DNA from: Phenylobacterium sp.
GTDB taxonomy: Bacteria > Pseudomonadota > Alphaproteobacteria > Caulobacterales > Caulobacteraceae
Length of the DNA stretch: 64,000 nucleotides
Assembly (NCBI RefSeq): GCF_030645195.1
Contig: NZ_JAUSLW010000128.1
Span: forward strand, 1 to 64,000
Direction: 5' to 3'
Position numbers and translations under genes: made by a program. Below are positions 1-19,331 of the stretch, in pieces (within the stretch, counting starts at the first letter, position 1; each line of letters starts with the position of its first letter). The notes under the pieces were generated by a model. The model worked only from the letters and a program-made list of their open reading frames with translations, did no database searches and was not told where the DNA came from.

Positions 1-3000
1 CTCGGCGACCCAGGTCCGGGCGCTGGACACCACCGATGTGGCTGAACTGTCCTCGACCCAGGTCGGCGCCATGTCGGCGGCCCAGATCGGGGCCCTGTCC
101 TCCACCAGCCTGGCCAGCCTGGACTCCACCCAGCTGGGCGCCCTGACGGCGGCCCAGGTCGGCGCCCTGTCGGCCACCAGCCTCTCGGGCCTGGACGGAA
201 CCCAGATCGGCTCACTGACCACCACCCAGGTGGGCGGCCTGACCACCAGCCAGCTCAAGTCCCTGAGCACCACGGACTTCGGCGAGCTCACCTCCACCCA
301 GATCGGCGCCCTGAGCGCCAATCAGCTCGGGGCCCTGTCGGCCACCAACATCTCGGCTCTGGACGCCACCCAGACGGCGGCCTTGTCCACGACCCAGGTC
401 AAGGGCCTGGCCACCACTCAGCTCTCCGCCCTGAACGCCACCGACATCGGCGAATTCACCGCCACCCAGATCGGCGCCCTGTCCAACGCCCAGATCGCGT
501 CGCTGACGGCCACCAACATCTCGGCCCTCGACGCCACCCAGACGGCCGCGCTCTCCACCACCCAGGTCAAGGCGCTGTCGGTCAGCCAGCTGCGGGGCCT
601 CGACGCCACCGACGTCGCTGAGCTCGCCGGCACCCAGATCGCGGCCATGGCCACGACCCAGATCGCGGCCCTGAGCTCCACCAATATCGGCGCGCTGGAC
701 GCCACCCAGCTGGGCGCCCTTACGGCTGCCCAGATCGGCGCCCTGTCGACCACCAGCCTCTCGACCCTGGACGCCACCCAGACCGGCTCGCTGACCACCA
801 CCCAGGTCGGCGGTCTCACCACCACCCAGCTCAAGAGCCTGTCGACCACCGACTTCGGCGAACTGACCTCGACCCAGATCGGCGCCCTGTCGGCCGCCCA
901 GATCGGGGCCCTGTCGGCCACCAACGTCTCGTCGATGGACGCCACCCAGACGGCGGCCCTGACCACCACCCAGGTGAAGGGCCTGGCGACCACCCAGCTC
1001 TCGGGCCTCAACGCCACCGACATTGGCGAACTGACCACCACCCAGATCGGCGCGCTCGGCGGCAGCCAGATCGCGGCGCTCTCGGCCACCAACATCTCGG
1101 CCCTCGACGCCACCCAGGTCGCGGCGCTCTCCACCACCCAGGTGAAGTCCCTGACCACCGGCCAGCTCGCCGGCCTGTCCACCACCGACATCGGCGAGTT
1201 CGCCGACACCCAGATCGGGGCCCTGGCCACCGGCCAGCTGGCCTCGCTGACCGCCACCAACCTGTCGGCGCTGAACGCCACCCAGGTGGCGGCCATCAGC
1301 ACCACTCAGATCAAGGCGCTCACCTCCACGCAGCTGAGGGCGCTGGACACCACCGACGTCAGCGAACTGTCCTCGACCCAGGTCGCGGCCATGTCGGCGG
1401 CCCAGATCGGCGCCCTGTCCTCCACCAGCCTCGGCAGCCTGGACACCACCCAGCTCGGCGCGCTCTCGGCGGCCCAGATCGGCGCCCTGTCGGCCACCAG
1501 CCTCTCGGGCCTGGACGCCACCCAGATCAGCGGTCTGACCACCACCCAGGTGGGCGGTCTGACCACCACCCAGGTGAAGGGGCTCTCCGCCACGGACTTC
1601 GGTGAGCTGACCTCGACCCAACTGGGCGCACTCTCGGCCGCCCAGGTCGGCGCCCTGACCACCACCAATCTCTCCAGCCTGGACGCCACCCAGACGGCGG
1701 CGCTCTCCACCACCCAGGTCAAGGGCCTGGCGACGACCCAGATCTCCGCCCTGAGCGCCACCGATATCGGTGAGTTCACCGCCACCCAGATCGGGGCCCT
1801 GGCCGGCACGCAACTGGCCGCCCTGACGGCGACCAACGTCTCCAACCTCGACGCCACCCAGGTCGCGGCGCTGTCCACGACGCAGGTGAAGTCCCTGACC
1901 ACCGGCCAGCTCGCCGGCCTGTCCACCACCGACATCGCCGAGTTCGCCGACACCCAGATCGGCGCCCTGACTCCGAGCCAGCTCGGCGCCCTGACCGCCA
2001 CCAACATCTCGGCGCTCGACGCCACCCAGGTGGCGGCGATCAGCACCACCCAGATCAAGGCGCTCTCGGCGACCCAGGTCCGGGCGCTGGACACCACCGA
2101 TGTGGCTGAACTGTCCTCGACCCAGGTCGGCGCCATGTCGGCGGCCCAGATCGGGGCCCTGTCCTCCACCAGCCTCGGCAGCCTGGACACCACCCAGCTC
2201 GGCGCCCTGACGGCGGCCCAGATCGGGGCCCTGTCGGCCACCAGCCTCTCGGGCCTGGACGCCACCCAGATCAGCGGCCTGACCACCACCCAGGTGGGCG
2301 GCCTGACCACCAGCCAGCTCAAGTCCCTGAGCACCACCGACTTCGGTGAGCTCACCTCCACCCAGATCGGCGCCCTGAGCGCCAATCAGCTGGCCTCGCT
2401 GACCTCGACCAATCTCTCGGCCCTGGACGCCACCCAGGTCGCGGCCCTCTCCACCACCCAGGTGAAGGGTCTGGCGACCACCCAGCTCTCGGCCTTGAGC
2501 GCCACCGACATCGGGGAGTTCACCGCCACCCAGATTGGCGCGCTGTCGAACGCCCAGCTCGCGTCGCTGACCGCCACCAACATCTCGGCCCTCGACGGGA
2601 CCCAGGTGGCGGCGCTCTCCACCACCCAGGTCAAGGCGCTCACCACGACCCAGCTGAAGGGCCTGGAGATCACCGACATCGGTGAATTCTCCGGTGAGCA
2701 GATCGGCGCCATGACCGCCACCCAGGTCGGCGCCATCACCTCCACCAACCTGGCGGCGATCGATGCGACGCAGATCGGCGCCCTCACCGCGGCCCAGGTC
2801 GGCGCCCTCTCCACCGCCAGCCTCTCGGCCCTGGATGCGACCCAGATCAGCGGCCTGACCACCACCCAGGTGGGCGGCCTGACAACCACCCAGTTGAAGA
2901 GCCTGTCGACCACGGACTTCGGTGAGCTGACCTCGACCCAACTGGGCGCGCTCTCGGCGGCTCAGGTCGGCGCCCTGACCGCCACCAATATCTCCAGCCT

Positions 3001-6000
3001 GGACGCCACCCAGACAGCGGCGCTGACCACGACCCAGGTCAAGGGTCTGGCGACGACCCAGCTGTCGGCCCTGACCTCCACCGACATCGGGGAACTCACC
3101 TCGACCCAGGTCGGCGCGCTCGGCGGCAGCCAGCTGGCGGCGCTGACGGCGACCAATGTGTCGGCCCTGGACGCCACCCAGGTGGCCGCGCTCTCGACCA
3201 CCCAGGTCAAGGCGCTGACCGCGGTCCAGCTGAAGGGCCTGTCCACCACCGATATCGCCGAGTTCGCCGACACCCAGATCGGGGCCCTGACGCCCAGCCA
3301 GATCGGCGCCCTGACGGCCACCAACATCGCCGCGCTCGACGCCACCCAGGTGGCGGCGATCTCGGTGACCCAGGTCAAGGCTCTGTCGACCACCCAGCTC
3401 AAGGCGCTGGACACCACCGATGTGGCCGAACTGTCCTCGACCCAGGTCGGCGCCATGTCGGCGGCCCAGATCGGCTCCCTGTCCTCCACCAGCCTGGCCA
3501 GCCTGGACACCACCCAACTCGGCGCCCTCACGGCCGCCCAGATCGGCGCCCTGTCCAACACCAGCCTGTCGGGCCTGGACGCCACCCAGATCAGCGGCCT
3601 GACCACCACCCAGGTGGGCGGCCTCACCACCAGCCAACTCCGGGGCCTGAGCACCACCGACTTCGGGGAGCTGACCTCGACCCAGATCAACTCGCTGTCG
3701 GCGGCCCAGCTGGGGGCGATCACGGCCACCAACATCGGCTCTCTGGACGCCACCCAGGTCGCGGCCCTGTCGACCACCCAGGTCAAGGGTCTGGCCACCA
3801 CCCAGCTCAGCGCGCTGAGCGGAACCGACGTCGCCGAATTCACCGCCACCCAGATCTCGGCGCTCAGCACCGCCCAGATCGCGGCGGTGACCTCCACCGG
3901 CATCGCGGCCCTGGACGCCACCCAGACGGCGGCCTTGTCCACCACCCAGGTCAAGGCGCTCACCACGACCCAGCTCAGGGGTCTGGACAGCACCGACATC
4001 GGGCAGTTCACCAGCACCCAGGTGGGGGTGCTCACCAGCAGCCAACTCGGCGCCCTGACCACCACCAACATCACCGCCCTGGACGCGACCCAGGTCGGCG
4101 CCCTCACGGCCGCCCAGATCGGTTCGCTCTCGGCGACCAACCTCTCGGCCCTGGACGCAACCCAGACCGGCGCCCTGACCACCACCCAGGTGGCCGGCCT
4201 GACCACGACCCAGCTGCGGTCGATGTCCACCACCGACTTCGGTGAGCTGACCTCGACCCAGATCGGCTCGCTCTCGGCTGGCCAACTCGGCGCCCTGACG
4301 GCCACCAACCTGGCCAGCCTGGACGCCACCCTGGTGGGGGGCCTCTCCACCACCCAGGTCAAGGGTCTGGCGACGACCCAGCTCAGCGCGCTGTCGGCCA
4401 CCGATATCGGCGAGTTCACCTCGACCCAGATCGGCGCCCTGGCGGCGAACCAGGTCGGCGCCCTGACGGCCAACGCCTTCTCGGCTCTGGACGCCACCCA
4501 GGTCGCGGCCCTCTCCACCACCCAGGTGAAGGGCCTCACCACGACCCAGCTGAAGGGCCTCGAGACCACAGATATCGCCGAACTCTCCGCCGACCAGGTC
4601 GGGGCCCTCAGCGCGACCCAACTCGGCTCGCTGACCGCCACCAACATCTCGGCCCTGGACGCGACCCAGGTGGCCGCGCTCTCCGTCACCCAGGTCCGCG
4701 GCCTGAACGCCACCCAACTGAAGGGCCTCGACACCACCGACATCGGTGAGCTCTCGGCCACCCAGGTGGGCGGCCTGACGGCGGCCCAGATCGGGGCGCT
4801 CTCGGCCACCAGCATCCAGACTCTCGACACCACCCAGATCGGCGCCCTGGCCACCACCCAGATCTCGGCCCTGACCAAGGAAGCCCTGTCGGCTCTCGAC
4901 GCCACACAGACCGCCTCCCTGACCACCACCCAGGTCGGCGCCCTGACCACCAGCCAGGTGGCCAACCTCTCGGCCACCGACTTCGGCGAGCTGACCTCGA
5001 CCCAGATCGGGGCGCTGTCGGCCAACCAGGTCGGCGCCCTGACCAGCACCAACCTCTCCAGCCTGGACGCCACCCAGGTGGCGGCGCTCTCCACCACCCA
5101 GGTCAAGGGCCTCACCACCACCCAGCTGAAGAGCCTGCAGGCCACCGACATCGGCGAGTTCACCGCGACCCAGGTGGGCGCGCTGAGCACCGCGCAGGTC
5201 TCGGCCCTGACGGCCACGGCGCTCTCGACCCTGGACGCCACCCAGGTCGCGGCGCTCTCCACCACCCAGGTGAAGGCGCTGACCACCAGCCAGCTGGCCG
5301 GCCTCTCCACCACCGATATCGGCGAGTTCGCCGCCACCCAGATCGGGGCCCTCAGCGCCAGCCAGTTCGCGGCTCTGACCGCCACCAATATCGGAGCCCT
5401 GGACACGACCCAGATCGAGGCCCTCTCCACGGCGCAGATCGGGGCCCTGTCGGCCGCCAGCCTCTCGACCCTGGACGCCACCCAGGTGGGCGCGATCTCC
5501 ACGACCCAGGTCGCGGGCCTGACCACCACCCAGCTGAAGACCCTGACCACGACGGACTTCGGCGATCTGAACTCGACCCAGATCAACGCCCTCTCGGCGG
5601 CGCAACTCGGGGCGCTGACGGCGACGAACATCTCGTCGCTCGACACGACCCAGTTCCAGGCGCTCTCCACCACCCAGGTGAGGGGCCTGACCTCGACCCA
5701 GCTTTCGGGCCTGAGCGTCACCGACGTGGCCGAGTTCGCCGACACCCAGATCGCGGCCCTGACGGCGGCCCAGATCCCCGGCCTGACGGCGACGGCGGTC
5801 TCCGCCCTCGACTCGACCCAGACCGCGGCCCTGAGCACCACCCAGGTCAAGGCCCTGACCACCACCCAGCTCAGGGGCCTGTCCATCACCGACGTCGGCG
5901 AACTGGCCACCACCCAGTTCGGGGCGCTCTCCTCGACCCAGGTGGGCGCGCTGTCGGCCACCGTGATCGCCGGCTTCGATGCGACCCAGGCCAACGCGCT

Positions 6001-6160
6001 GGCGACGACCCAGATCACCGGGCTTACCGCCACCCAGCTCGATGGACTGTCGGCGACCAGCATCTCGGGCATGGACGCCACCCTGCTGAACGCCATGACC
6101 GCCACCCAGGTGCAGAGCCTGGATAACGATCAGGTCGCCGCCTACATCGCCTCCACCTGA
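1..6160 (+). CDS. Giant octapeptide-repeat protein, 5'-truncated by the window
   Basis: The reading frame is open from base 2 to the stop at 6158-6160, giving about 2050 residues with the true start outside the window. Nearly the whole protein is an uninterrupted 8-residue repeat, roughly x-[ST]-[TA]-[QSND]-[IVL]-x-[AGS]-[LM], about 255 copies, rich in Ser, Thr, Ala, Gln and Leu. Acidic octads ending TD[FIV][GA]E[LF] recur every 7 or 10 octads. There are no cysteines, no membrane segments and no RTX glycine-rich nonapeptides in the visible part. The final residues (LDNDQVAAYIAST) break the repeat and may be a C-terminal cap. The [ST]-x-x-Q spacing resembles helix N-capping boxes, so a solenoid of very short helices is possible, but a beta-solenoid cannot be excluded. 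A long surface or secreted fibre or adhesin is an inference from size and composition. The next gene is an OGT-like glycosyltransferase, which makes this Ser/Thr-rich protein a candidate substrate. Function unknown. Confidence 0.85.
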   Translation, partial: SATQVRALDTTDVAELSSTQVGAMSAAQIGALSSTSLASLDSTQLGALTAAQVGALSATSLSGLDGTQIGSLTTTQVGGLTTSQLKSLSTTDFGELTSTQIGALSANQLGALSATNISALDATQTAALSTTQVKGLATTQLSALNATDIGEFTATQIGALSNAQIASLTATNISALDATQTAALSTTQVKALSVSQLRGLDATDVAELAGTQIAAMATTQIAALSSTNIGALDATQLGALTAAQIGALSTTSLSTLDATQTGSLTTTQVGGLTTTQLKSLSTTDFGELTSTQIGALSAAQIGALSATNVSSMDATQTAALTTTQVKGLATTQLSGLNATDIGELTTTQIGALGGSQIAALSATNISALDATQVAALSTTQVKSLTTGQLAGLSTTDIGEFADTQIGALATGQLASLTATNLSALNATQVAAISTTQIKALTSTQLRALDTTDVSELSSTQVAAMSAAQIGALSSTSLGSLDTTQLGALSAAQIGALSATSLSGLDATQISGLTTTQVGGLTTTQVKGLSATDFGELTSTQLGALSAAQVGALTTTNLSSLDATQTAALSTTQVKGLATTQISALSATDIGEFTATQIGALAGTQLAALTATNVSNLDATQVAALSTTQVKSLTTGQLAGLSTTDIAEFADTQIGALTPSQLGALTATNISALDATQVAAISTTQIKALSATQVRALDTTDVAELSSTQVGAMSAAQIGALSSTSLGSLDTTQLGALTAAQIGALSATSLSGLDATQISGLTTTQVGGLTTSQLKSLSTTDFGELTSTQIGALSANQLASLTSTNLSALDATQVAALSTTQVKGLATTQLSALSATDIGEFTATQIGALSNAQLASLTATNISALDGTQVAALSTTQVKALTTTQLKGLEITDIGEFSGEQIGAMTATQVGAITSTNLAAIDATQIGALTAAQVGALSTASLSALDATQISGLTTTQVGGLTTTQLKSLSTTDFGELTSTQLGALSAAQVGALTATNISSLDATQTAALTTTQVKGLATTQLSALTSTDIGELTSTQVGALGGSQLAALTATNVSALDATQVAALSTTQVKALTAVQLKGLSTTDIAEFADTQIGALTPSQIGALTATNIAALDATQVAAISVTQVKALSTTQLKALDTTDVAELSSTQVGAMSAAQIGSLSSTSLASLDTTQLGALTAAQIGALSNTSLSGLDATQISGLTTTQVGGLTTSQLRGLSTTDFGELTSTQINSLSAAQLGAITATNIGSLDATQVAALSTTQVKGLATTQLSALSGTDVAEFTATQISALSTAQIAAVTSTGIAALDATQTAALSTTQVKALTTTQLRGLDSTDIGQFTSTQVGVLTSSQLGALTTTNITALDATQVGALTAAQIGSLSATNLSALDATQTGALTTTQVAGLTTTQLRSMSTTDFGELTSTQIGSLSAGQLGALTATNLASLDATLVGGLSTTQVKGLATTQLSALSATDIGEFTSTQIGALAANQVGALTANAFSALDATQVAALSTTQVKGLTTTQLKGLETTDIAELSADQVGALSATQLGSLTATNISALDATQVAALSVTQVRGLNATQLKGLDTTDIGELSATQVGGLTAAQIGALSATSIQTLDTTQIGALATTQISALTKEALSALDATQTASLTTTQVGALTTSQVANLSATDFGELTSTQIGALSANQVGALTSTNLSSLDATQVAALSTTQVKGLTTTQLKSLQATDIGEFTATQVGALSTAQVSALTATALSTLDATQVAALSTTQVKALTTSQLAGLSTTDIGEFAATQIGALSASQFAALTATNIGALDTTQIEALSTAQIGALSAASLSTLDATQVGAISTTQVAGLTTTQLKTLTTTDFGDLNSTQINALSAAQLGALTATNISSLDTTQFQALSTTQVRGLTSTQLSGLSVTDVAEFADTQIAALTAAQIPGLTATAVSALDSTQTAALSTTQVKALTTTQLRGLSITDVGELATTQFGALSSTQVGALSATVIAGFDATQANALATTQITGLTATQLDGLSATSISGMDATLLNAMTATQVQSLDNDQVAAYIAST
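35..5891 (+). repeat. Higher-order tandem repeat: 24-bp units in 576-bp and 744-bp blocks
   Basis: The octad is 24 bp. Codons for the acidic octad marker at 35, 611, 1355, 2099, 2675, 3419, 3995, 4739, 5315 and 5891 are spaced 576, 744, 744, 576, 744, 576, 744, 576 and 576 bp apart, that is 24 or 31 octads. A 24-octad block splits as 10+7+7 octads (markers at 35, 275, 443, 611). The 31-octad block has one extra 7-octad (168-bp) segment. Bases 1 to about 110 recur almost unchanged at offset 2064 bp, indicating recent segmental duplication. Confidence 0.85.
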
Positions 6161-6180
6161 CCAAGGCGGGCGTGATCTTC

Positions 6181-6206
6181 CGCGCCGGGCCTTCGGGCTC
6201 GGCGCG
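6181..6206 (+). terminator. Strong hairpin with TTCG loop after the repeat gene
   Basis: An 11-bp stem (CGCGCCGGGCC against GGCTCGGCGCG, one G-T pair) closes on a TTCG tetraloop 20 bp after the stop codon. No T-run follows, so it may be a weak terminator or an mRNA-stabilising stem. Confidence 0.45.
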
Positions 6207-6336
6207 GATGGTCGCATTGCGGTTCCCGGTCTGGAATCCAGGCTCCGGAGGCGCCACAACAGGGTGACGGGATCCCCTGGCCGAGTCGCCGGCCGAGCGG
6301 GTCCGGCACGGCTGGAAGGGCAGGCGCGAGACCATA

Positions 6337-8421
6337 ATGTCCCAGGATCTCTTCCTCGCAGCGCTGCAGAAGGCCACGGCGGAGACCCTCGGTCTGGCCG
6401 AGCTGATCAATACCGCCAATGCCCTGAGCGGGGCGGGCAGGGGCGACCTGGCCCAGCAGCTCTACAAAGTCTGGGCCGCCCTCAACCCCACCCATCCGCA
6501 GCTCTATGTGGCCCATTTCAACCGGGGCTGCCTGCAGACCCAGTCCGGCGACCTGCCCGGCGCCATCGAGGCCCTGACCGCCGCCATCACCCTCGATCCG
6601 GACTTCATGCCGGGCTACATCAACCTGGGCGGCGTGCTGGAGCGCAGCGGCCAGCCCGACGAGGCCATCGCCCTGTGGCAGACCGCCCTACAGAAGGTCT
6701 CCGCCATCACCGGCCAGGGGTTCGGCTACAAGCTGTCGACCCTCAAGCAGCTGGCCCGCATCCTCGCCGACACCCAGAAGATCGAGGCCGCCGAACAGGT
6801 CCTGCGCGAGACCCTGACCCTCGATCCCACCCAGCGTGACGTGATCGAGCAGTACCTGGCCATGCGGCTGGTCCAGTGCAAATGGCCGGTGGTGGAGCCG
6901 CTGCCGGGCCTGGAAAGCGCCGACCTGGTCACCAACATCCACCCCCTCTCCATGGCGGCCTATACTGACGATCCCCTGCTGCAGCTGGCCGCCGCCGCGC
7001 GCTATGTCGGCCTCACCGCCGAGACGCCCCTGGCCTCGGCGGGCGAGGATCGCCGGCACGCGCCCATCGACGTCCAGGGCCGCCGCCTGCGGGTGGGCTA
7101 CATCTCCTCGGACCTGCGCGACCACGCGGTGGGCTATCTGATGGCCGAGCTGTGGGAGCTGCACGACAAGGCCAAGGTCGAGGTCTTCGCCTATTACTGC
7201 GGCATCCCCTCGGTGGACGCCCTGAGCCTGCGCACCCGCGCGGCGGTGGAGCACTGGACCGACATCCGGCCGATGAGCGACGCCCAGGCGGCGGCGAAGA
7301 TCGCGGAAGACGGCATCGACATCCTGGTGGACGTCAACGGACACACCCGCGAGTGCCGCACCGGCGTCTTCGCCCTGCGGCCGGCCCCGATCCAGGTCAA
7401 CTGGCTGGGCTATCCCGGCACCATGGGCAGCCCCTACCACCACTACATCATCGCCGATGGCTGGATCGTGCCGCCGGGCTCGGAGATCTACTATTCCGAA
7501 AAGGTCGTGCGGCTGCCCTGCTACCAGCCCAACGACCGCAAGCGGGTGGTGGCGGCCGAGCGTCCGACCCGGGCCGAGGCCGGCCTGCCCGACGACGCCT
7601 TCGTCTTCTGCTGCTTCAACGGCGCCCAGAAGATCAGCCGCGCCACCTTCGAGCGCTGGCTGACCATCCTGAAGCGGGTGGAAGGTAGCGTGCTCTGGCT
7701 GCTGGAGAGCACCGCCGAGACCCATGCCCGCTTGCTGGCTTTCGCGGCGGGGCAGGGGGTGGCGCCCGAGCGCCTGATCTTCGCCCCCAAGCTGCACAAC
7801 GCCCTGCACCTGGCCCGCTACCCCCTGGCCGACCTGTTCCTCGACACCGGAGCCTACGGCGCCCACACCACCGCCTCCGACGCCCTGTGGATGGGGGTGC
7901 CGATGGTCACCCTTTCGGGCCGTGGCTTCGCCGCCCGGGTCTGCGGCAGCCTGGTGCGAGCCTCAGGCCTGGTGGACCTGGTCTGCGCCAGCCCGGACGA
8001 ATACGTCGAGCGCGCCGTCGCCCTGGGGCAGGACCGCGCCCAGATCGCGGCCTACAAGGCCCAGCTCGAGGCCAACCGCGACACCTGCGACCTCTTCAAC
8101 ATGGAGAAGCTGGTGAGCAGCCTGGAGGACCTCTACGCGACCATGGTGGTGGACTATCAGCAGGGCGCCCTCCCGCGCCCCGACCTCACCAATCTCGACG
8201 CCTATATGAAGGCCGGCGTCGATCATGATCACGAGGGCCAGGAGGTCCTGGCCATCGAGGACTACCACGGTCTCTACAAGGCCAAGCTGGCCCGGCGGCA
8301 CCTGGCCCGGCCCATTCCCCCCGACGCGCGCCTCTGGACCCAACAGGACATCGCCCTGGCCGAGGGCGAACCGCCAGTGCCCGAACCCCAGGCCCGCCTT
8401 CGCCGCGCCGCGGCCGACTGA
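6337..8421 (+). CDS. TPR plus SPINDLY/OGT-type (GT41) glycosyltransferase
   Basis: This 694-residue protein has TPR-like helices in about residues 1-190 and a GT41 catalytic region in about 245-620. Visible family motifs are RVGYISSDLRDHAVGYL (with the conserved His), the VDVNGHTRECRTGVFALRPAPIQ stretch around residues 330-350, WLGYPGTMG, a KISRATFERW segment and LDTGAYGAHTTASDALWMGVPMVT. GT41 enzymes transfer a sugar from a nucleotide-sugar to Ser/Thr hydroxyls of proteins in the cytoplasm. Caulobacter FlmG, a flagellin glycosyltransferase, has the same TPR-plus-GT41 plan, and flagellin genes lie 4.4 kb downstream. The immediate upstream neighbour is the Ser/Thr octad-repeat protein, an equally plausible acceptor. 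The enzyme class is well supported. The donor sugar and acceptor are unknown, and no pseudaminic acid genes are in the window. The start at 6337 follows a purine-rich AGGGCAGG. Confidence 0.88.
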   Translation: MSQDLFLAALQKATAETLGLAELINTANALSGAGRGDLAQQLYKVWAALNPTHPQLYVAHFNRGCLQTQSGDLPGAIEALTAAITLDPDFMPGYINLGGVLERSGQPDEAIALWQTALQKVSAITGQGFGYKLSTLKQLARILADTQKIEAAEQVLRETLTLDPTQRDVIEQYLAMRLVQCKWPVVEPLPGLESADLVTNIHPLSMAAYTDDPLLQLAAAARYVGLTAETPLASAGEDRRHAPIDVQGRRLRVGYISSDLRDHAVGYLMAELWELHDKAKVEVFAYYCGIPSVDALSLRTRAAVEHWTDIRPMSDAQAAAKIAEDGIDILVDVNGHTRECRTGVFALRPAPIQVNWLGYPGTMGSPYHHYIIADGWIVPPGSEIYYSEKVVRLPCYQPNDRKRVVAAERPTRAEAGLPDDAFVFCCFNGAQKISRATFERWLTILKRVEGSVLWLLESTAETHARLLAFAAGQGVAPERLIFAPKLHNALHLARYPLADLFLDTGAYGAHTTASDALWMGVPMVTLSGRGFAARVCGSLVRASGLVDLVCASPDEYVERAVALGQDRAQIAAYKAQLEANRDTCDLFNMEKLVSSLEDLYATMVVDYQQGALPRPDLTNLDAYMKAGVDHDHEGQEVLAIEDYHGLYKAKLARRHLARPIPPDARLWTQQDIALAEGEPPVPEPQARLRRAAAD

Positions 8422-8458: not shown

Positions 8459-10750
8459 ATGACTCGGAAGGTTCTCGAAGCGCTCCGCGACCAGGGCTAT
8501 GAGCCGGCCTCGATGCTGGACGTCGGCGCCAACATCGGCGGGTTCACCGAGGGGTTCCTGCAGGTCTATCCCGACTGCGTCCCGACCCTGGTGGAGCCCA
8601 ATCCCTATTGTGAGCCCGAGCTGGTGAAGCTGGGCTTCGAACGGCACATGGTGGCCGCCTCCGACACGGCGGGCGTGGCCGAGCTGTTCCTCAGCAAGGA
8701 CTGGCTGCAGTCCACCGGCGTCTCCCTCTACCGCGAGGACACCCACTATTTCAGCGAGGAAAAGGTCCTCAAGCACGCCGTGCCCAAGGTGCGGATCGAC
8801 GACCTGTTCGCCGGTCGCCGCTTCGACTTTGTGAAGATCGACACCCAGGGCGCCGAGGTCGACGTGCTGAAGGGCGGGGCCACCGTCCTGGCGCAGGCCG
8901 ACTACATCCTGCTCGAGGTCTCGATGGTCGAGTACAACATCGGCGGCGCCAAGGCCGAGGATGTGTTCGCCCAGCTGGACGCCATGGGCTTCCACTGCGC
9001 CGAGATCGTCGAGTTCCATCGCCTGGACGACGTGCGCCAGAACGGCCTGCTGCAGATCGACGTGCTGTTCGAGCGCCGCAGCAAGCGGGACAGCGCCTCG
9101 ACACAGGCCCTGTTCCAGCTGGGCCAGGCCCTGGCGGCCGAGGGCCGAACAGCCGACGCCCAGACGGTCTTCGAAAACCTGATCGCCCTGCGTCCGCACG
9201 ACGAGCCGGCGCTGTGGGCCCTGATCGAGATCTACACCGCCCAGGACCGGACCCTGGATGTCCTGCGCGCCCTGCGGTTCATCCGGCAGGGCAGGGCCAA
9301 TCCCAACAGCCTGCTGGAGGAGATCCAGACCCGCGCCATGCCGGCGATCGGCAAGTTCAACGCCCACCTGGAGGCCGGCGAGACCGTCGAGGCCGAGCGC
9401 TACGCCGCCGCCCTGGTGGCCTTGATCCCCAACAGCGAACCGATGCTGACCGCCGCGATGAGCTGCAACCAGGTGCTAAAGCGGTGGGGCGAGGTGGAGC
9501 GCTACGCCCGCGCCCTGCTGAAGGTCGATCCCTCCAACCATGTCGCCCAGATCGTCATGGCCGCCGCCACCCGCACCTTGCCGCCCCCAGCCGCGCCGCC
9601 GGTCGCCGCCGATCCGGCCCTGGCCGAGATCGCCGAGAAGATGGCCCTGGCGCTCGCGCCCGGTGACCTGCACCCGCTGCTGCGTCTGCGCGACATCCAT
9701 GATGTGGTCAGCCTGATCCTCTGCCGGCCCCTGACCCCCAGCAGCGAGGCGCAGATCGCCGCGCTTCTGGCCGCCGCGGCCGCGCTGGAGGTGGTGGTCG
9801 AGCCTGGGTCGGAGTGGGAGGGCTGGCATAAGCACTACCGCCTGCTGCTGGACGCCGTGGACCTGGCGGCCGTCAACGCCCCGACCCCAGCCCCGGCCCC
9901 GGAATCCGAGCTCGCCTTCGTGTCCTCCACCGGCGCCGCCCTTGACTGGAACAGCGTGCGCGCCACGGCCGATCGGCTGGGCGCCCAGGCGGTGTTCTTC
10001 GCCGCCGCCGACGAGACCTATGTCGACCTCTACGCCCGCTGGTATGCGCTTTCGGTGCTCAAGTACTCCGATGTGCCGAGCCTGATCGTCATTCACGTGA
10101 TCGGCGGCAAGGATCGGCTGGCGGCCATCGCGGCCGGGGTCGGGATCAGCGACGAGCGGCTGATCTTCGCGGGCGACGACTTCGACGCCGCTGCTGTGAC
10201 CACCAAGGTCTATGACGCGCCGCCCAAGGGCTTCATCGCCCGCCCGGTCGCCCACTTCCAGTGCGTGCGGTTCCAGCGTCTGGGAACCCTGCTGGCGCGC
10301 CTGGAGCGCCCGGTCTTCGTCTCGGATATCGACCTGATCCTGCAACGCGGCGTGGCCGACCTGCTGGCCCGCGCCGCGCCCGCCGATGTGATGTTCAACG
10401 AGAACGAGATCAGCTTCAACGCTGGCTCCCGCCTGACCGCCAACCTCCTGCTGGTGAACCCCACGGCCGGCGCCCAGGTCTTCCTGGCCTTCCTCCGCGA
10501 CTACATCGAACGCGAGCTGGCCCGGCCTGCGGTGACCCGCTGGATCGACCAGGTCGCCCTGATCTTCGCTCGCCATCACCTCGTGGCCCGGGGCGCCTCG
10601 CCGACCCTCGCCTATTTCGACACCACCACCGACATCAACAACGTCATGTACCCGTCCTATCAGGCCAATCCGTTCCGCTTCCTGTCCCTGTTCCATGGCT
10701 TCGACACCTCGAGCCTGGAAGGGGTGGGGGAGGGCGCGGCCGCGCAGTGA
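8459..10750 (+). CDS. FkbM methyltransferase - TPR - glycosyltransferase-like fusion
   Basis: This 763-residue protein has three parts. Residues 1-210 form an FkbM-type SAM methyltransferase: [15 protein letters not shown] is the SAM-binding loop, followed by [16 protein letters not shown] and YILLEVS. Residues about 215-390 are TPR-like helical repeats ([18 protein letters not shown] and similar). Residues about 490-745 look like a nucleotide-diphospho-sugar transferase with a DxD-type motif in FVSDIDLIL and a downstream [16 protein letters not shown] segment. A Pro/Ala linker separates the last two parts. FkbM enzymes methylate hydroxyls, often on sugars, so one polypeptide could add and methylate a sugar. 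The gene starts 37 bp after the OGT-like gene and probably shares its transcript. The methyltransferase call is firm; the C-terminal call rests on motifs only. Confidence 0.78.
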
Positions 10751-10811
10751 CGCCCAACCCACGGCGCGGAGACTCAGTCTAGGTTGGGGGTTTCAAGGCG
10801 GGGCGGACGGC

Positions 10812-11762
10812 ATGAAGCGCATACTTGTGACCGGCGGCGCCGGCTTTGTCGGCTCGCACCTCTGCGAACGCCTGATCGAGGCTGGCCACGAGGTCCTGTG
10901 CGTCGACAACTATTACACCGGCTCGCGGCGCAACGTGGCCCATCTGCTGGCCAATCCGAACTTCGAGCTGATGCGTCACGACGTGACCTTCCCGCTCTTC
11001 GCCGAGGTGGACGAGATCTACAACCTGGCCTGCCCGGCCTCGCCGATCCACTACCAGTTCGACCCCGTCCAGACGACGAAGACCAGCGTGCATGGCGCCA
11101 TCAACATGCTGGGCCTGGCCAAGCGCCGGAAGGCCAAGATCTTCCAGGCCTCCACCAGCGAGGTCTATGGCGACCCCACCATCCATCCGCAGGTGGAGGA
11201 GTACTGGGGCAATGTGAACCCCATCGGCATCCGCTCCTGCTACGACGAGGGCAAGCGCTGCGCCGAGACCCTGTTCTTCGACTACCACCGCCAGCACAAA
11301 CTGCAGATCAAGGTGGCGCGGATCTTCAACACCTACGGCCCGCGCATGCATCCCAATGACGGCCGCGTGGTCTCCAACTTCATCATGCAGGCCCTGAGGG
11401 GCGAGCCGATCACCCTCTATGGCGAGGGCCTGCAGACGAGGTCCTTCTGCTATGTCGATGACCTGGTGGAGGGCTTCATCCGGCTGATGGCGACGGGCGA
11501 CGAGGTCACCGGCCCCATCAACTTGGGGAATCCCGGCGAGTTCACCATCAAGGCGCTTGCCGAAATGGTGGTGGCCCAGACCGGCTCGGCCTCGAAGATC
11601 ACCTACCAGCCCCTGCCGTCCGACGACCCCAAGCAGCGCCAGCCCGACATCTCCAAGGCCCGCGCCCTGCTGGATGACTGGCAGCCGACCATCGCCCTGG
11701 AGCAGGGCCTGGCCCGGACCATCGTCTATTTCGACGGCCTACTGAAAAACGGCCTGGCCTGA
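10812..11762 (+). CDS. UDP-glucuronate decarboxylase (UDP-xylose synthase)
   Basis: This 316-residue protein is an extended short-chain dehydrogenase that converts UDP-glucuronate to UDP-xylose with bound NAD+ in the cytosol. Evidence is the N-terminal Rossmann motif [24 protein letters not shown], the active-site YxxxK in SCYDEGKR, the conserved [21 protein letters not shown] segment and the C-terminal [15 protein letters not shown]. The chosen ATG begins exactly at the Rossmann fold and is preceded by AAGGCGGGG; in-frame codons upstream add nothing conserved. It lies between glycosyltransferase and methyltransferase genes and is likely to supply a donor nucleotide sugar to this modification cluster. 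UDP-xylose as the physiological product is inferred from family. Confidence 0.9.
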
Positions 11763-11793: not shown

Positions 11794-12567
11794 ATGGACA
11801 TCAAGGAACACGCCGACCTCAACACCCACATCTACCAGTTCGCGCAGGGCTATCTCGAGACACGCGGCTGGTTCGACAGCCTGGACGGCATCCCGCGCAA
11901 CAAGGATGGCGTGGTGCCCTGGATCACCTATCCGGCCTTCATCCAGCTCTCGCGGATCGTCCGGCCCGACTTCAAGGTGTTCGAGTACGGCTGCGGTGGG
12001 TCATCCCTCTGGTGGTCGGGCAAGGTCGCCGAGGTCACCAGCGTCGAGCACGACAGCCGCTGGGCCGCCCACGTGGCCGAGGGCGCGCAATCCAACCTCA
12101 GGATCGTCGTGCGTGAGATGGACGAGGCGGTCGACGAGGCGCGCCGTGCGGCGGTCGCCCCCTTCTTCGCCGATCCGCCCAATCTGCCCCTGTCCCCCAA
12201 GGAGGCGCACAACAGGCTGCACGGCCTGATGTCTGAGGAGTTCGTCGCCTACGCCACCGAGATCATGGCCTTCCCCAAGGCCCACTTCGACGTGATCGTC
12301 ATCGACGGGATGGCCAGGGTCCTGAGCACCTGGGTGGCGATCTCCCATCTCAAGCCGGGCGGCTTCATCCTGTTCGATAACTCCGACCGCTGGCAGTACA
12401 ACGCCGCCTACCAGATGCTGCACGCCGCGGGCTTCCGCCGGATCGACTATTACGGTCCCGGACCGGTGAACAAGCTCGAGTGGTGCACCTCGCTGTTCGT
12501 CCGTGACCTGAGCGTCTTTGAAGCCGCGGTCGACAGTGCGTCCACCGTCTCCGACATGGGCTGGTAG
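11794..12567 (+). CDS. Class I SAM-dependent methyltransferase-like protein
   Basis: This 257-residue protein has a Rossmann-type core: FKVFEYGCGGSSLWW matches a SAM-binding motif I, VTSVEHDSRW the acidic post-strand-2 residue, and FDVIVIDGMAR plus HLKPGGFILFDNSD the motif IV/V region. It has no signal peptide. The gene starts 32 bp after the UDP-glucuronate decarboxylase and ends the glycan block before the flagellin promoter region, so methylation of a sugar or of a protein such as flagellin is an inference. The substrate is not identifiable from sequence. Confidence 0.7.
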   Translation: MDIKEHADLNTHIYQFAQGYLETRGWFDSLDGIPRNKDGVVPWITYPAFIQLSRIVRPDFKVFEYGCGGSSLWWSGKVAEVTSVEHDSRWAAHVAEGAQSNLRIVVREMDEAVDEARRAAVAPFFADPPNLPLSPKEAHNRLHGLMSEEFVAYATEIMAFPKAHFDVIVIDGMARVLSTWVAISHLKPGGFILFDNSDRWQYNAAYQMLHAAGFRRIDYYGPGPVNKLEWCTSLFVRDLSVFEAAVDSASTVSDMGW

Positions 12568-16523: not shown

Positions 16524-19331
16524 ATGACGATCACCTTCGACACCAGCATCCTGGTCAACTACTACGCGGCGCGCTCGGGCGTGTCGTCGGGTGGGACCAC
16601 GACCGCTTCGGGGACCAGCACCGCCAAGAAATACGCCCCCAGCGCCCCCTGGCTGCCCGGAGCGAAGACCGCCTCCAACACACCGGCCTTGATGACCACG
16701 GCGGTCAAGAAGGCCATGCTGGGGCACAAGTTGATCGACGAGAACGCCGCCCAGCTCGACCTGGCCGGCGCCAGTTCCGACTACAAGAAGCTGTTCGCCC
16801 TATATCAGGGCCTCGACACCCTGGCCGGCGTCGTCGACCAGATCGGCGGCAAGGGCCTGACCAGCGTCGACAAGGATCGGATCAAGTCGGTGTTCGGCAA
16901 GGGCCTAGCCGAGGTCACCGCCTATACCGACCAGCTGGAGATGGACCAGATCCGCCTGACCCGCGCCGAGGTGACCGACAAGGCCAAGTCCAAGCTGGGG
17001 GTGGCCAAGGCCAAGACCGACTACACCACCCCGCCCCTGGTCTCCGGGGACGTCTCGGCCCCCGTCGACGCCTTCCAGGGCGACGTGAAGTTCAACATCT
17101 CGATCAAGCGCGTGGGCGTGACCCACGACATCACCATCGACCTGGCCGACATGGGCGCCACGCCCCGGAACATGTCCAACGTGATGTCCTACATCAACAC
17201 CCAGCTCAGCGACGCCGGCGTCGGCACGCGGGTGGCCTCCCTGCGCATCCCCGGCGGCGACCGCACCGTCCAGGTGGCCGGCAAGGCGGTGAAGGTGGGG
17301 GTCAATCCCGACCAGTGGGCGATGAAGTTCAACGTCGATTCCGGCGACACCCTGACCTTCTCTGCGCCGAAGACCGAACCGGCCATCTACCTGGCCCAGA
17401 GCGTCGGCAACCCCGATCCGGACGGCAAGGCCTCCACCAAGGACGGCGTGGTCCTCAGCCAGCTGATGAAGGTGCAGACCGACACCGTCGACGTGACGCC
17501 GCCGCCCCAGGCCACCGGCGACGCAAACTATGTCGACGGTCGGGTCTGGGCCAAGGACATGGAAAAGACGGTGGGGACGGTCCATGCCACCCAGGTCGGC
17601 TCCGATGGTTCGGTCTATGTGCTGGCCGACGTCACCGGCAAGACCTCGGGTCAGGACATCAAGGGCGATCAGGACGTCGCCCTGCTGAAATACGACTCCG
17701 CCGGCAAGCTGCTCTTCACCCGCACCCTGGGCGCCTCGTCCAACGCCAGCGGCCTGGCCCTGGCGATCTCCGCCGACGGTCAGATCGCCGTCGCCGGCAA
17801 GGTCACCGGGGGCTTGAGCGGGGCGACCGAAGGGGCGCTGAATTCGGGCGCCACCGGCAGCTTCGCCACCAGTTCCGACAGCTTCGTCACGGTGTTGAAC
17901 ACCGAGGGCGAGGAACTCTGGACCCAGCGCCGCGGCGCGCGCCAGAACGACGAGGCCACCCAGATCGCCTTCGGCGCCGACGGGGCGGTCTATGTCGCCG
18001 GCCGCGCCCAGTCGAGCCTGCCGGGAACCACCGCGCTGGGCGGCTGGGACGCCTATATCGAGGGCTTCAAGGCCGACGCCGCGGGCAAGGTCTCCACCCT
18101 TTTCACCCAGAGCGTGGGCTCGGCCGGCTCGGACCGGCCCGGCGGCCTGGTGGTGGACGGCTCGACCCTGCACCTGGCCAACAACGAGGACGGCCATGCC
18201 GTCCTGCACCGTTTCGACCTCTCCGGCGGAACCCCGGTGGAGACCGCCTCCCGCGACCTGGGCGACCTCTCCGGCGGCGAGATCGCGGGCCTGGCCCTGG
18301 ACGGCGGCCAGCTGGTCATAGCCGGATCGACCCGCAACGATTCCATGGCGGCCGGGGCGGTCACCCGCGGCTATAGCGGCGGGACCGACGGCTTCGCCGC
18401 GCGGATCGCGGCCGATCTCAGCCTCAACGCCAGCGACCGCATGGCCTATTACGGCGGCGCCGGCGACGACCGGGTCTCGGGCCTGGCCATGGCCGAGGGC
18501 CGCATCTATCTCACCGGCCAGGCCGGGACCGACCTGCCGGGCGAGGATCCGGTGGCCAAGAAGGACGGCTTCCTGGCCGAGCTGGACGTCAACAGCGGCG
18601 CTGTGGGCTTCTCCCGGCGCTTCAGCGGCAAGGACGGTTACGCCACCCCCACGGCCATCGCCATCGACGCCTCCGGGGCCAGCGCGCTCGATCGCCTGGG
18701 CCTGCCCAAGGGGCTGCTGGACCTGAGCGACTCCCCGCAGCTCACCGCCGTCAGCTCGGTGCGGGCCGGCGACCAGTTCCAGGTGCGCACCGGCGAGGCC
18801 GGCGCCTTCAAGACCATCACCATGGAGGCCAACGACACGTTGGAGACCCTGGTCACCAAGCTGAAGCGCGGCCTGAACTATCAGGCCAAGGTGGAGATCG
18901 TCACCTCGGGCGGCGTACGGTCCATTCAGGTCAAGCCGCTCAACGCGCGCACCATCCTGGAGTTCTCCGCCGGCAAGACCGGCAAGGACGCCCTGGACCT
19001 GTTGGGCCTTCCCGAGGGCGTCGTGCGCGCCACCGTCACCGACAAGAAGGGCAAGACCACGCCGGCGGACGGGAAGGGGGCCTTCTACGGCCTGGGCCTG
19101 GAAAAGGACCTCAACCTCGACGACGCCGACGGCGTCTCCCACGCCAAGGCCGCCCTGGCCACGGCCCTGGGCGTGATCCGCAACGCCTACAAGGACCTCA
19201 AGGAGGCGGCCACGCCGCTCAGCCAACGGGCGTCCGAGAAGGCCAAGGCCGAGGGGCCGGTGCCGGCCTATCTGACCAACCAGATCGCCAACTACCAGGC
19301 CGCCCTCGACCGCCTGGGTGGCGGCAGCTGA
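16524..19331 (+). CDS. Large flagellar-locus protein with propeller-like repeats and a flagellin hook IN-like motif
   Basis: This 935-residue protein has no cleavable signal peptide. It opens with a Ser/Thr-rich low-complexity stretch (about 16-40). Residues about 350-720 contain repeated blades of the kind [GD]GSVYVLADVTG, GQIAVAGKVTG, GAVYVAGRAQS, GRIYLTGQAG, alternating with KYDSAGKLLFTRTLG-like strands, which suggests an SBBP/PQQ-type beta-propeller. Near residues 765-810, TMEANDTLETLVTKLKRGLN resembles the flagellin hook IN motif found in hook-associated proteins. The position right after three flagellins and FlaG, and the size, recall the protein annotated FlaEY beside Caulobacter flagellin genes. 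That correspondence is a recollection, not verified, so no symbol is given. A role in filament assembly or export is inferred from context. Confidence 0.6.
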   Translation: MTITFDTSILVNYYAARSGVSSGGTTTASGTSTAKKYAPSAPWLPGAKTASNTPALMTTAVKKAMLGHKLIDENAAQLDLAGASSDYKKLFALYQGLDTLAGVVDQIGGKGLTSVDKDRIKSVFGKGLAEVTAYTDQLEMDQIRLTRAEVTDKAKSKLGVAKAKTDYTTPPLVSGDVSAPVDAFQGDVKFNISIKRVGVTHDITIDLADMGATPRNMSNVMSYINTQLSDAGVGTRVASLRIPGGDRTVQVAGKAVKVGVNPDQWAMKFNVDSGDTLTFSAPKTEPAIYLAQSVGNPDPDGKASTKDGVVLSQLMKVQTDTVDVTPPPQATGDANYVDGRVWAKDMEKTVGTVHATQVGSDGSVYVLADVTGKTSGQDIKGDQDVALLKYDSAGKLLFTRTLGASSNASGLALAISADGQIAVAGKVTGGLSGATEGALNSGATGSFATSSDSFVTVLNTEGEELWTQRRGARQNDEATQIAFGADGAVYVAGRAQSSLPGTTALGGWDAYIEGFKADAAGKVSTLFTQSVGSAGSDRPGGLVVDGSTLHLANNEDGHAVLHRFDLSGGTPVETASRDLGDLSGGEIAGLALDGGQLVIAGSTRNDSMAAGAVTRGYSGGTDGFAARIAADLSLNASDRMAYYGGAGDDRVSGLAMAEGRIYLTGQAGTDLPGEDPVAKKDGFLAELDVNSGAVGFSRRFSGKDGYATPTAIAIDASGASALDRLGLPKGLLDLSDSPQLTAVSSVRAGDQFQVRTGEAGAFKTITMEANDTLETLVTKLKRGLNYQAKVEIVTSGGVRSIQVKPLNARTILEFSAGKTGKDALDLLGLPEGVVRATVTDKKGKTTPADGKGAFYGLGLEKDLNLDDADGVSHAKAALATALGVIRNAYKDLKEAATPLSQRASEKAKAEGPVPAYLTNQIANYQAALDRLGGGS

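Follow-up and report, generated by a model that had tools for sequence, protein, structure and literature searches.

A long octapeptide-repeat protein of Phenylobacterium is encoded beside an OGT-type GT41 enzyme and is predicted to form a solenoid rod with opposite charge stripes

Two bacterial protein glycosylation systems come closest to the one considered here. FlmG of Caulobacter is described as a cytoplasmic enzyme with tetratricopeptide-repeat (TPR) and glycosyltransferase (GT) parts that O-glycosylates flagellins before their export (PMC7591256), and HMW1C, an enzyme of the GT41 family, is described as forming N-links on the two-partner-secreted adhesin HMW1 (see PMC3012730 and PMC3983070). 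Here we analyze a stretch of 64,000 nucleotides of Phenylobacterium sp. (contig NZ_JAUSLW010000128.1 of assembly GCF_030645195.1; hereafter the window), which carries an open reading frame (ORF) built of eight-residue repeats, or octads, followed by a gene for a TPR-containing GT41 enzyme. The pair would resemble the FlmG system in having a cytoplasmic O-glycosyltransferase with TPR substrate-binding and GT domains whose substrate is exported afterwards, and the HMW1C–HMW1 system in dedicating an enzyme to one giant protein substrate. The FlmG system differs in its substrate, flagellin, and its donor, pseudaminic acid, whereas here an octad solenoid is linked to an enzyme of the O-GlcNAc transferase (OGT) type; HMW1C differs in making N-links, and the window enzyme lies near OGT (E=2e-100) and far from HMW1C (3q3e, E=7.6e-4). 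Our preferred reading, to which we give a probability of roughly 60%, is that the window encodes a long, acidic solenoid rod glycoprotein together with its own GT41 enzyme, by which it is O-glycosylated in the cytosol on surface threonine and serine residues.

The octad ORF is a single open frame of 2052 amino acids (aa) on the forward strand, its 5' end cut by the start of the contig (C121). Read in phase, it comprises 256 octads and the tail IAST with zero frame or phase breaks, in good agreement with the about 255 octapeptides counted by a first-pass annotation made from the letters alone. With the octad positions numbered 0 to 7, index 0 is S, T, D, A, N or G in 253 of the 256 octads (S/T/D/N in 231), index 2 is T in 205, index 3 is Q in 180, index 4 is I, V or L in 232 and index 7 is L in 223. 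The ORF matches the Pfam family PF20080 (ALTTAQ repeat) at E=1.8e-267 (863 bits against a cut-off of 26.4, in 89 stretches), and the ratio of nonsynonymous to synonymous substitutions (dN/dS) in its frame is 0.18-0.22 against three orthologues. The Pfam match and the selection on the + frame demonstrate that the ORF is not a chance product. A 2015-aa open frame running opposite to it (212-6259, reverse strand) is most likely a by-product of the high-GC repeat.

Thirty-two octads carry the TD mark, and the 31 intervals between them are 10 octads (nine times) or 7 octads (22 times), with no other value. The ORF therefore divides exactly into blocks of 24 octads (576 bp) or 31 octads (744 bp), that is, 10+7+7(+7), which is the arrangement that the first-pass annotation had read from its acidic marker. 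The annotation had also proposed a fixed order of polar marks, and this part stands for the 7-octad groups (n=22; 18-22 of 22 for each mark): N at index 3 in octad +3 (18/22), D at index 0 in octad +4 (DATQ, 21/22), Q-V/I-K/R in octad +5 (22/22) and TD-x-G/A/S-E in octad 0 (21/22). The 10-octad groups (n=9) carry a different set, with D at index 0 in both +4 and +7 (9/9 each), K/R at index 5 in +9 (8/9) and N in +3 in just 4/9, so that the TN-DATQ-QVK order is limited to the 7-octad groups.

The whole gene is present in a named Phenylobacterium sp. metagenome-assembled genome (MAG; locus L049). Its product of 2496 aa is 95.5% identical to the window's 2052 residues without gaps, begins MAISSLSAAQIGALS, consists of octads nearly end to end and contains zero cysteine, zero tryptophan and 751 serine plus threonine residues, with a calculated pI of 4.05. 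The other two near orthologues, L050 and L103, have the same length. Inspection by eye of the N- and C-termini of relatives revealed neither a signal peptide nor a second domain. Within the window, the 31-octad blocks are 63-79% and the 24-octad blocks 70-90% identical to one another. The whole-block duplication suggested at first pass thus survives as history (blocks 63-90% identical), but not as continuing growth, since the length is now fixed (2496 aa in 3/3 near orthologues).

Structure prediction supports the assignment of one short alpha-helix to each octad. AlphaFold2 modelled one 31-octad block, given 42 aligned blocks, with a predicted local distance difference test (pLDDT) of 95.5, a predicted TM-score (pTM) of 0.86 and 31 helices; a 62-octad segment modelled without an alignment gave 62 helices (pLDDT 93.2, pTM 0.77). 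The modelled helices mostly cover index 1 to index 5 or 6. Because they start at index 1, index 0 (S/T/D/N) is predicted to supply the N-cap, Q at index 3 being consistent with a capping box under capping rules that we take as given. The first-pass annotation had proposed such modelling, which gave one helix per octad at pLDDT 93-95, and had held that neither family nor fold could be named; this has been overtaken by the PF20080 match and by a solved protein, HeliScrew4 (PDB 9zem), the closest by sequence (phmmer E=4.1e-13 over 102 aa). Leucine-rich-repeat (LRR) matches that ranked below HeliScrew4 in the same search were taken as spurious.

HeliScrew4, which to judge by its name may be a designed protein, shares an 8-residue repeat of the form LTPEQIAA. 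It is 120 aa long, and in place of the A/T at index 1 and the Thr at index 2 of the window protein it carries mostly Pro and Glu/Asp, respectively; this suggests that the repeat kind as such needs no threonine at index 2. 9zem was not among the 50 matches listed for the octad model by Foldseek or VIA-align (VIA-align library to April 2026), and no close fold match was found among the structure-search matches listed. The best solved Foldseek matches among those listed were mesothelin and its kin, described as superhelices with ARM-type repeats (see PMC2628672 and PMC10035497); the likeness is a general one (8cx3, E=4e-4, TM-score 0.31-0.34, 13% identity). Since the repeat is already in Pfam and has a sequence relative in the PDB, neither is new in itself. 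Pfam holds the repeat model alone; the lattice, the stripes and the GT41 partner described below come from the present analysis. In the open-access, non-preprint literature searched we found no paper on PF20080 or the ALTTAQ repeat and none on HeliScrew4, nor did we find the gene pair, the 24/7 lattice or the two opposing stripes described.

Computation on the sequences supports a superhelix of about 24 octads per 7 turns, corresponding to 3.43 octads or 27.4 aa per turn. At this value 7 octads make 2.04 turns, 10 make 2.92, 17 make 4.96 and 24 exactly 7. In other species the commonest marker spacings were 7, 10, 17, 14, 3, 24, 34, 38, 31, 21, 27 and 48 octads (620 intervals, of which 25 were not multiples of 8). 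Fitting a period to the TD-x-GE spacings yielded 3.42 for the window (n=29; mean cosine 0.94), against a highest value of 0.52 in 500 nulls in which each spacing was shifted by up to 3 octads. The same fit gave 3.43 for other Phenylobacterium-like proteins (n=82; mean cosine 0.94, maximum in 500 nulls 0.35), 3.44 for Caulobacter-like proteins (n=170; 0.95 and 0.29) and 3.43 for Hyphomonadaceae and others (n=81; 0.85 and 0.33). When unique spacings were counted once, 0, 1 and 0 of 500 nulls were as good in these other three groups. The group names follow record titles, and some MAG titles (Marinimicrobia for L125 and L128) may be wrong.

A marker-free spectrum over all octad positions and residues peaked at 3.425-3.448 in 8/8 groups, including Rhodospirillales-type proteins without the TD marker and an Opitutaceae protein; the weakest peak, from the single protein L127, was 1.89 against a shuffled maximum of 1.31. 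Four further sets, two from a family of another class (f37) and two without GT41, peaked at 3.39-3.46. The marker-interval, spacing-fit and spectrum sets comprised ORFs of at least 1000 aa, one octad ORF was kept per locus in the spectra (L098 belonging to no group), and the near copies of the window (L049, L050 and L103) were kept outside the four spacing groups, the spectra and the stripe and threonine counts below. Helix lengths in the single-sequence AlphaFold2 model vary with a period of 3.47, a peak reached by 1/500 permutations, and a torsion scan, in which the spacing was imposed, found the coil sterically possible if turns stack 8-12.5 Å apart. From this assumed pitch we estimate a length of ~73-114 nm, perhaps 90 nm, for the 312-octad protein.

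Placed on the 3.43 lattice, the 124 acidic residues of the window protein cluster (R 0.75), as do its 43 K/R residues (R 0.58), 177 degrees apart. Among 66 proteins (segments of at least 60 octads; ORFs of up to 500 aa and proteins with few charges excluded), clustering was significant for acids in 61, for bases in 55 and for both in 51. The mean acid-base angle in these 51 two-stripe proteins was 180.0 degrees (R 0.91), and it exceeded 120 degrees in 47. The solenoid with a regular charged face suggested at first pass is thus supported by models and relatives, an acidic face lying opposite a basic one.

The neighboring glycosyltransferase gene, which provides the main biological lead, lies outside the part that the first-pass annotation had considered. 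Its product matches the catalytic domain PF13844 (278 bits against a cut-off of 25, E=1.5e-82) and, N-terminally, several TPR models over cut-off. Among solved proteins it matched human OGT best (E as given above), followed by XcOGT (4e-85) and SPINDLY (5e-54), and conserved stretches are visible in its alignment with human OGT. A search of 80 genomes of the same bacterial family (E<=1e-60) gave ten matches of 51-100% identity in nine genomes and no other above 44%; nine of the ten directly adjoin an octad ORF, and the tenth (L035) is one gene away. An alignment of these ten was then compared with GTDB contigs, and the best 80 of 432 relatives (L049-L128) were taken. In 77 of the 80 a detector placed an octad ORF immediately before the GT41 gene in the same orientation, with stop-to-start gaps of -71 to 276 bp; a 78th, cut by a contig end (L053), was recognized by eye, and L087, with 123 bp upstream, is untestable, so that within this clade 78 of 79 testable loci carry the pair. 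Loci of other GT41s from the same bacterial family, some on short contigs, served as a control and had an octad ORF in 0/20 cases. In a tree of 57 GT41s, the 32 sampled members of the linked clade grouped together with support 100/100, and the 21 control rows and 4 f37 rows fell outside it.

The linkage extends to plasmids. In 10 records fetched from 58 plasmid records with a GT41 match, octad ORFs lay within 10 kb of the GT41 gene in 8/8 cases at 44-52% identity, on either strand and side (at low density in L193 and L197, with broken frames in L191), and in 0/2 cases at 40-41%. Annotated plasmid records give the octad ORFs as hypothetical protein and the GT41s as O-linked N-acetylglucosamine transferase, glycosyl transferase, tetratricopeptide repeat protein or hypothetical protein. 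Three loci (L104, L125 and L128) have a second octad ORF downstream of the GT41 gene, and arrays or fusions of many GT41 units occur at G030:C16, G019:C1 and G183:C92, for example as 2499- and 3781-aa frames with several matches.

The index 2 threonines of the window protein are distributed around its rod (R 0.17). The median frequency of threonine at this position is 0.74 in 73 proteins from GT41-linked loci versus 0.53 in 7 unlinked proteins (p=6e-4), and proline at index 1 amounts to 0.008 in linked versus 0.086 in unlinked proteins. The f37 proteins, which stood outside this test, range from 0.37 to 0.90 for threonine at index 2, disregarding the mis-phased fragment L190_3.

These observations can be joined in a mechanism whose steps 1 to 3 draw on computation, 4 and 5 on gene linkage and composition, and 6 on inference. 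Each octad would form a short alpha-helix (step 1), capped by index 0, with a capping box completed by Q at index 3 and a core made of the index 4 I/V/L and the index 7 L. Successive helices would join in one uninterrupted superhelix with ~24 octads in every 7 turns (step 2), on which the TD-x-GE and DATQ octads would align as an acidic stripe and the K/R octads as a basic stripe opposite (step 3); the marks would recur at 7 and 10 octads because both are near-integer numbers of turns. The index 2 threonines, in 205 of 256 octads, would be distributed all round the rod (step 4). The TPR and GT41 enzyme would recognize the rod, probably through its TPR part, and O-glycosylate its threonine and serine residues in the cytosol, with a sugar that is perhaps supplied by the UDP-glucuronate-decarboxylase-like epimerase encoded downstream and altered by methyltransferases (step 5). 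Through their opposite stripes, rods could associate laterally as sheets or bundles, probably extracellular (step 6). The working model is, by analogy, that of FlmG, in which the TPR part holds the substrate and the GT part adds the sugar before export, the octad rod taking the place of flagellin. Glycosylation, donor sugar, export, function, lateral packing and surface location are what we infer here from the evidence given.

The features of the window are collected in the table below.

Table. Octad blocks, the linked glycosyltransferase gene and neighboring genes in the window
Feature	Position	Strand	Basis
Octapeptide-repeat ORF (PF20080), 5' cut by contig start; orthologue of the complete 2496-aa L049 protein	2..6160	+	Pfam, phase reading, orthologue alignment
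24-octad block (10+7+7)	26..601	+	octad phase, TD spacing
31-octad block (10+7+7+7)	602..1345	+	octad phase, TD spacing
31-octad block, AlphaFold2-modelled segment (pLDDT 95.5, 31 helices)	1346..2089	+	octad phase, TD spacing, model
24-octad block	2090..2665	+	octad phase, TD spacing
31-octad block	2666..3409	+	octad phase, TD spacing
24-octad block	3410..3985	+	octad phase, TD spacing
31-octad block	3986..4729	+	octad phase, TD spacing
24-octad block	4730..5305	+	octad phase, TD spacing
Final 31-octad block, most divergent (63-65% to other 31-blocks)	5306..6049	+	octad phase, block identity
C-terminal end: last octads TATQVQSL DNDQVAAY IAST and stop	6050..6160	+	octad phase
TPR + GT41 (OGT-type) protein glycosyltransferase, linked gene	6337..8421	+	Pfam, linkage, tree
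FkbM-type methyltransferase domain + TPR + C-terminal region; BLAST-cluster members in 23/80 loci	8459..10750	+	Pfam
NAD-dependent epimerase/dehydratase; BLAST-cluster members in 19/80 loci	10695..11762	+	BLAST cluster
Possible methyltransferase (PF13578 below cut-off)	11794..12567	+	Pfam
Three flagellin genes, few genes downstream of the octad cassette	12746-16264		gene matches
935-aa ORF adjoining the flagellins; no Pfam match at E<=0.001	16524-19331		Pfam

The epimerase ORF overlaps the preceding ORF, so its true start likely lies further in; we take its product to resemble UDP-glucuronic acid decarboxylase (UDP-xylose synthase). In L191 a gene annotated as UDP-glucuronic acid decarboxylase precedes the GT41 gene.

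PF20080 is present in 12/80 genomes of the same family, the window's own included, and in 18/299 genomes of the phylum, namely the own genome, one class-mate and 16 from f37, whose octad ORFs reach 6436 aa. The own genome contains three further octad ORFs, on contigs C182, C112 and C170. The first two, an N-terminal part of 1220 aa (L031) and a C-terminal part of 772 aa (L032), are each ~77% identical to the matching end of the L049 protein and both are truncated at a contig edge; the C112 piece is accompanied by GT41 and FkbM genes of its own. Neither the window nor C112 gave an exact overlap with the end of C182; the two ORFs may represent a single second copy that the assembly has split. 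Elsewhere, the octad genes of L067, L081, L095 and L191 are split across several frames, as assembly errors or decayed copies, and a protein of an uncultured Caudovirales phage (BFVD A0A6J7X2V1) is 41% identical to the octad model across 108 columns.

Several observations weigh against the glycosylated rod that we favor, or against single parts of it. Linked GT41s supplied the alignment from which the 80 loci were retrieved, and these include near copies (L049, L050 and L103), so that the 78/79 measures linkage within the clade and not independent events; L058, with a complete flank and with GT41 and epimerase genes, has no octad ORF and yet falls within the linked clade. Conversely, octad proteins occur without GT41 in their flanks (L033, L034, L038, L042, L044, L045 and L047), some of them still rich in threonine (L033, 0.71). 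Within f37 just 4 of the 14 octad loci fetched include a GT41 in the stretch, and those sampled belong to another clade; some other f37 GT41s are further off on the same contig (for example G155:C76 and G112:C2), and one of the 14 loci, L187, has no octad ORF by the detector. The threonine comparison (0.74 versus 0.53) includes only 7 unlinked proteins and is confounded by kinship. On the structural side, the number of octads per turn is derived from sequence and +105 and -105 degrees per octad are indistinguishable; the window alone, with unique spacings, does not fix the period (63/500 nulls as good); and in 4/51 two-stripe proteins the angle between the stripes falls short of 120 degrees (L054, 117; first ORF of L104, 119; first ORF of L128, 110; L125, 83). 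Opposite stripes may also serve folding or solubility and not assembly. As to export, no signal peptide was seen by eye in the octad protein N-termini, and no L191-type exporter was found in the own genome at E<1e-100.

The exporters bear on the alternative that survives best, a large type I secreted adhesin or extracellular matrix protein whose main partner is a dedicated secretion system, glycosylation being secondary. An ATP-binding cassette (ABC) exporter and an HlyD protein adjoin the octad ORF in 8 loci (L128, L183, L184, L185, L186, L189, L191 and L192), the ABC exporters at octad loci of other, distant lineages are 57-66% identical to that of L191, a C39 peptidase domain was over cut-off in 2/3 exporters scanned, and the apparent lack of a signal peptide fits such a route. 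Against this, no such exporter was found in the own genome at E<1e-100; 13/80 family genomes have only relatives of 38-40% identity, and only three of these (G014, G053 and G061) are among the 12 with PF20080. With the exporter present in some lineages and none found here, the octad protein may be exported in this way in some lineages. We regard the alternative as possible at clearly less than even odds; it is compatible with the glycosylated rod and not opposed to it.

That the octad protein is a naked, non-glycosylated structural solenoid, and that the GT41 enzyme makes or modifies something else in the operon, seems to us rather unlikely. Octad proteins without a neighboring GT41 keep the same lattice, and threonine may be favored for helix starts and not for sugars. 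However, one GT41 clade is linked to octad genes across Caulobacterales, Rhodospirillales, Acetobacteraceae and an Opitutaceae, the linkage also holds for GT41s of 44-47% identity on Rhizobiaceae plasmids, which stand outside the tree, and the linked proteins show threonine enrichment and proline avoidance.

The substrate could instead be flagellin, as for FlmG, itself a cytoplasmic TPR and GT enzyme acting on flagellins (PMC7591256), with the octad gene a mere neighbor in a flagellar locus. The Phenylobacterium cassette does sit between flbT-flaF and flagellin genes: FlbT and FlaF are encoded upstream of the octad gene in L031, L049, L050 and L103, and flagellins downstream in the window, L049, L103 and L110 and nearby in L196 and L197. 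Across the 123 sources searched, though, flagellin was found in 6, the window included, and a FlbT or FlaF match in 5, so that flagellin linkage is not the rule for octad-GT41 loci, in contrast to the octad ORF at 78/79 testable GT41s, and the second genome copy on C112 has its own GT41. We therefore consider this alternative improbable. Finally, it is very improbable that the 7/10 register is a relic of tandem duplication devoid of structural meaning, as the 63-90% identity of internal blocks might suggest, because the same 3.43 period emerges from Hyphomonadaceae-type proteins, whose spacings run from 7 to 123 octads, and from Rhodospirillales-type proteins, in which the TD marker is mostly absent, and acid and base lie opposite in most of the 66 proteins.

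Beyond the window, the glycosylated rod may, as a more speculative extension that we hold only tentatively, belong to a widespread bacterial surface system, in which a giant glycosylated screw rod of about 245 kDa here, and of several hundred kDa elsewhere, would be zipped laterally by its stripes into a sheet or cable, a length-fixed, self-assembling material encoded by a gene pair in Alphaproteobacteria and beyond and served by a type I exporter in some lineages. If the glycosylated-rod reading is right, it would provide a partner and a likely function class for a Pfam repeat family on which no paper was found, and a natural substrate for a clade of bacterial O-GlcNAc transferase relatives. 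With charged stripes on its two opposite sides and a pitch readable from its sequence, the octad screw would then be a simple natural template for rods and sheets.

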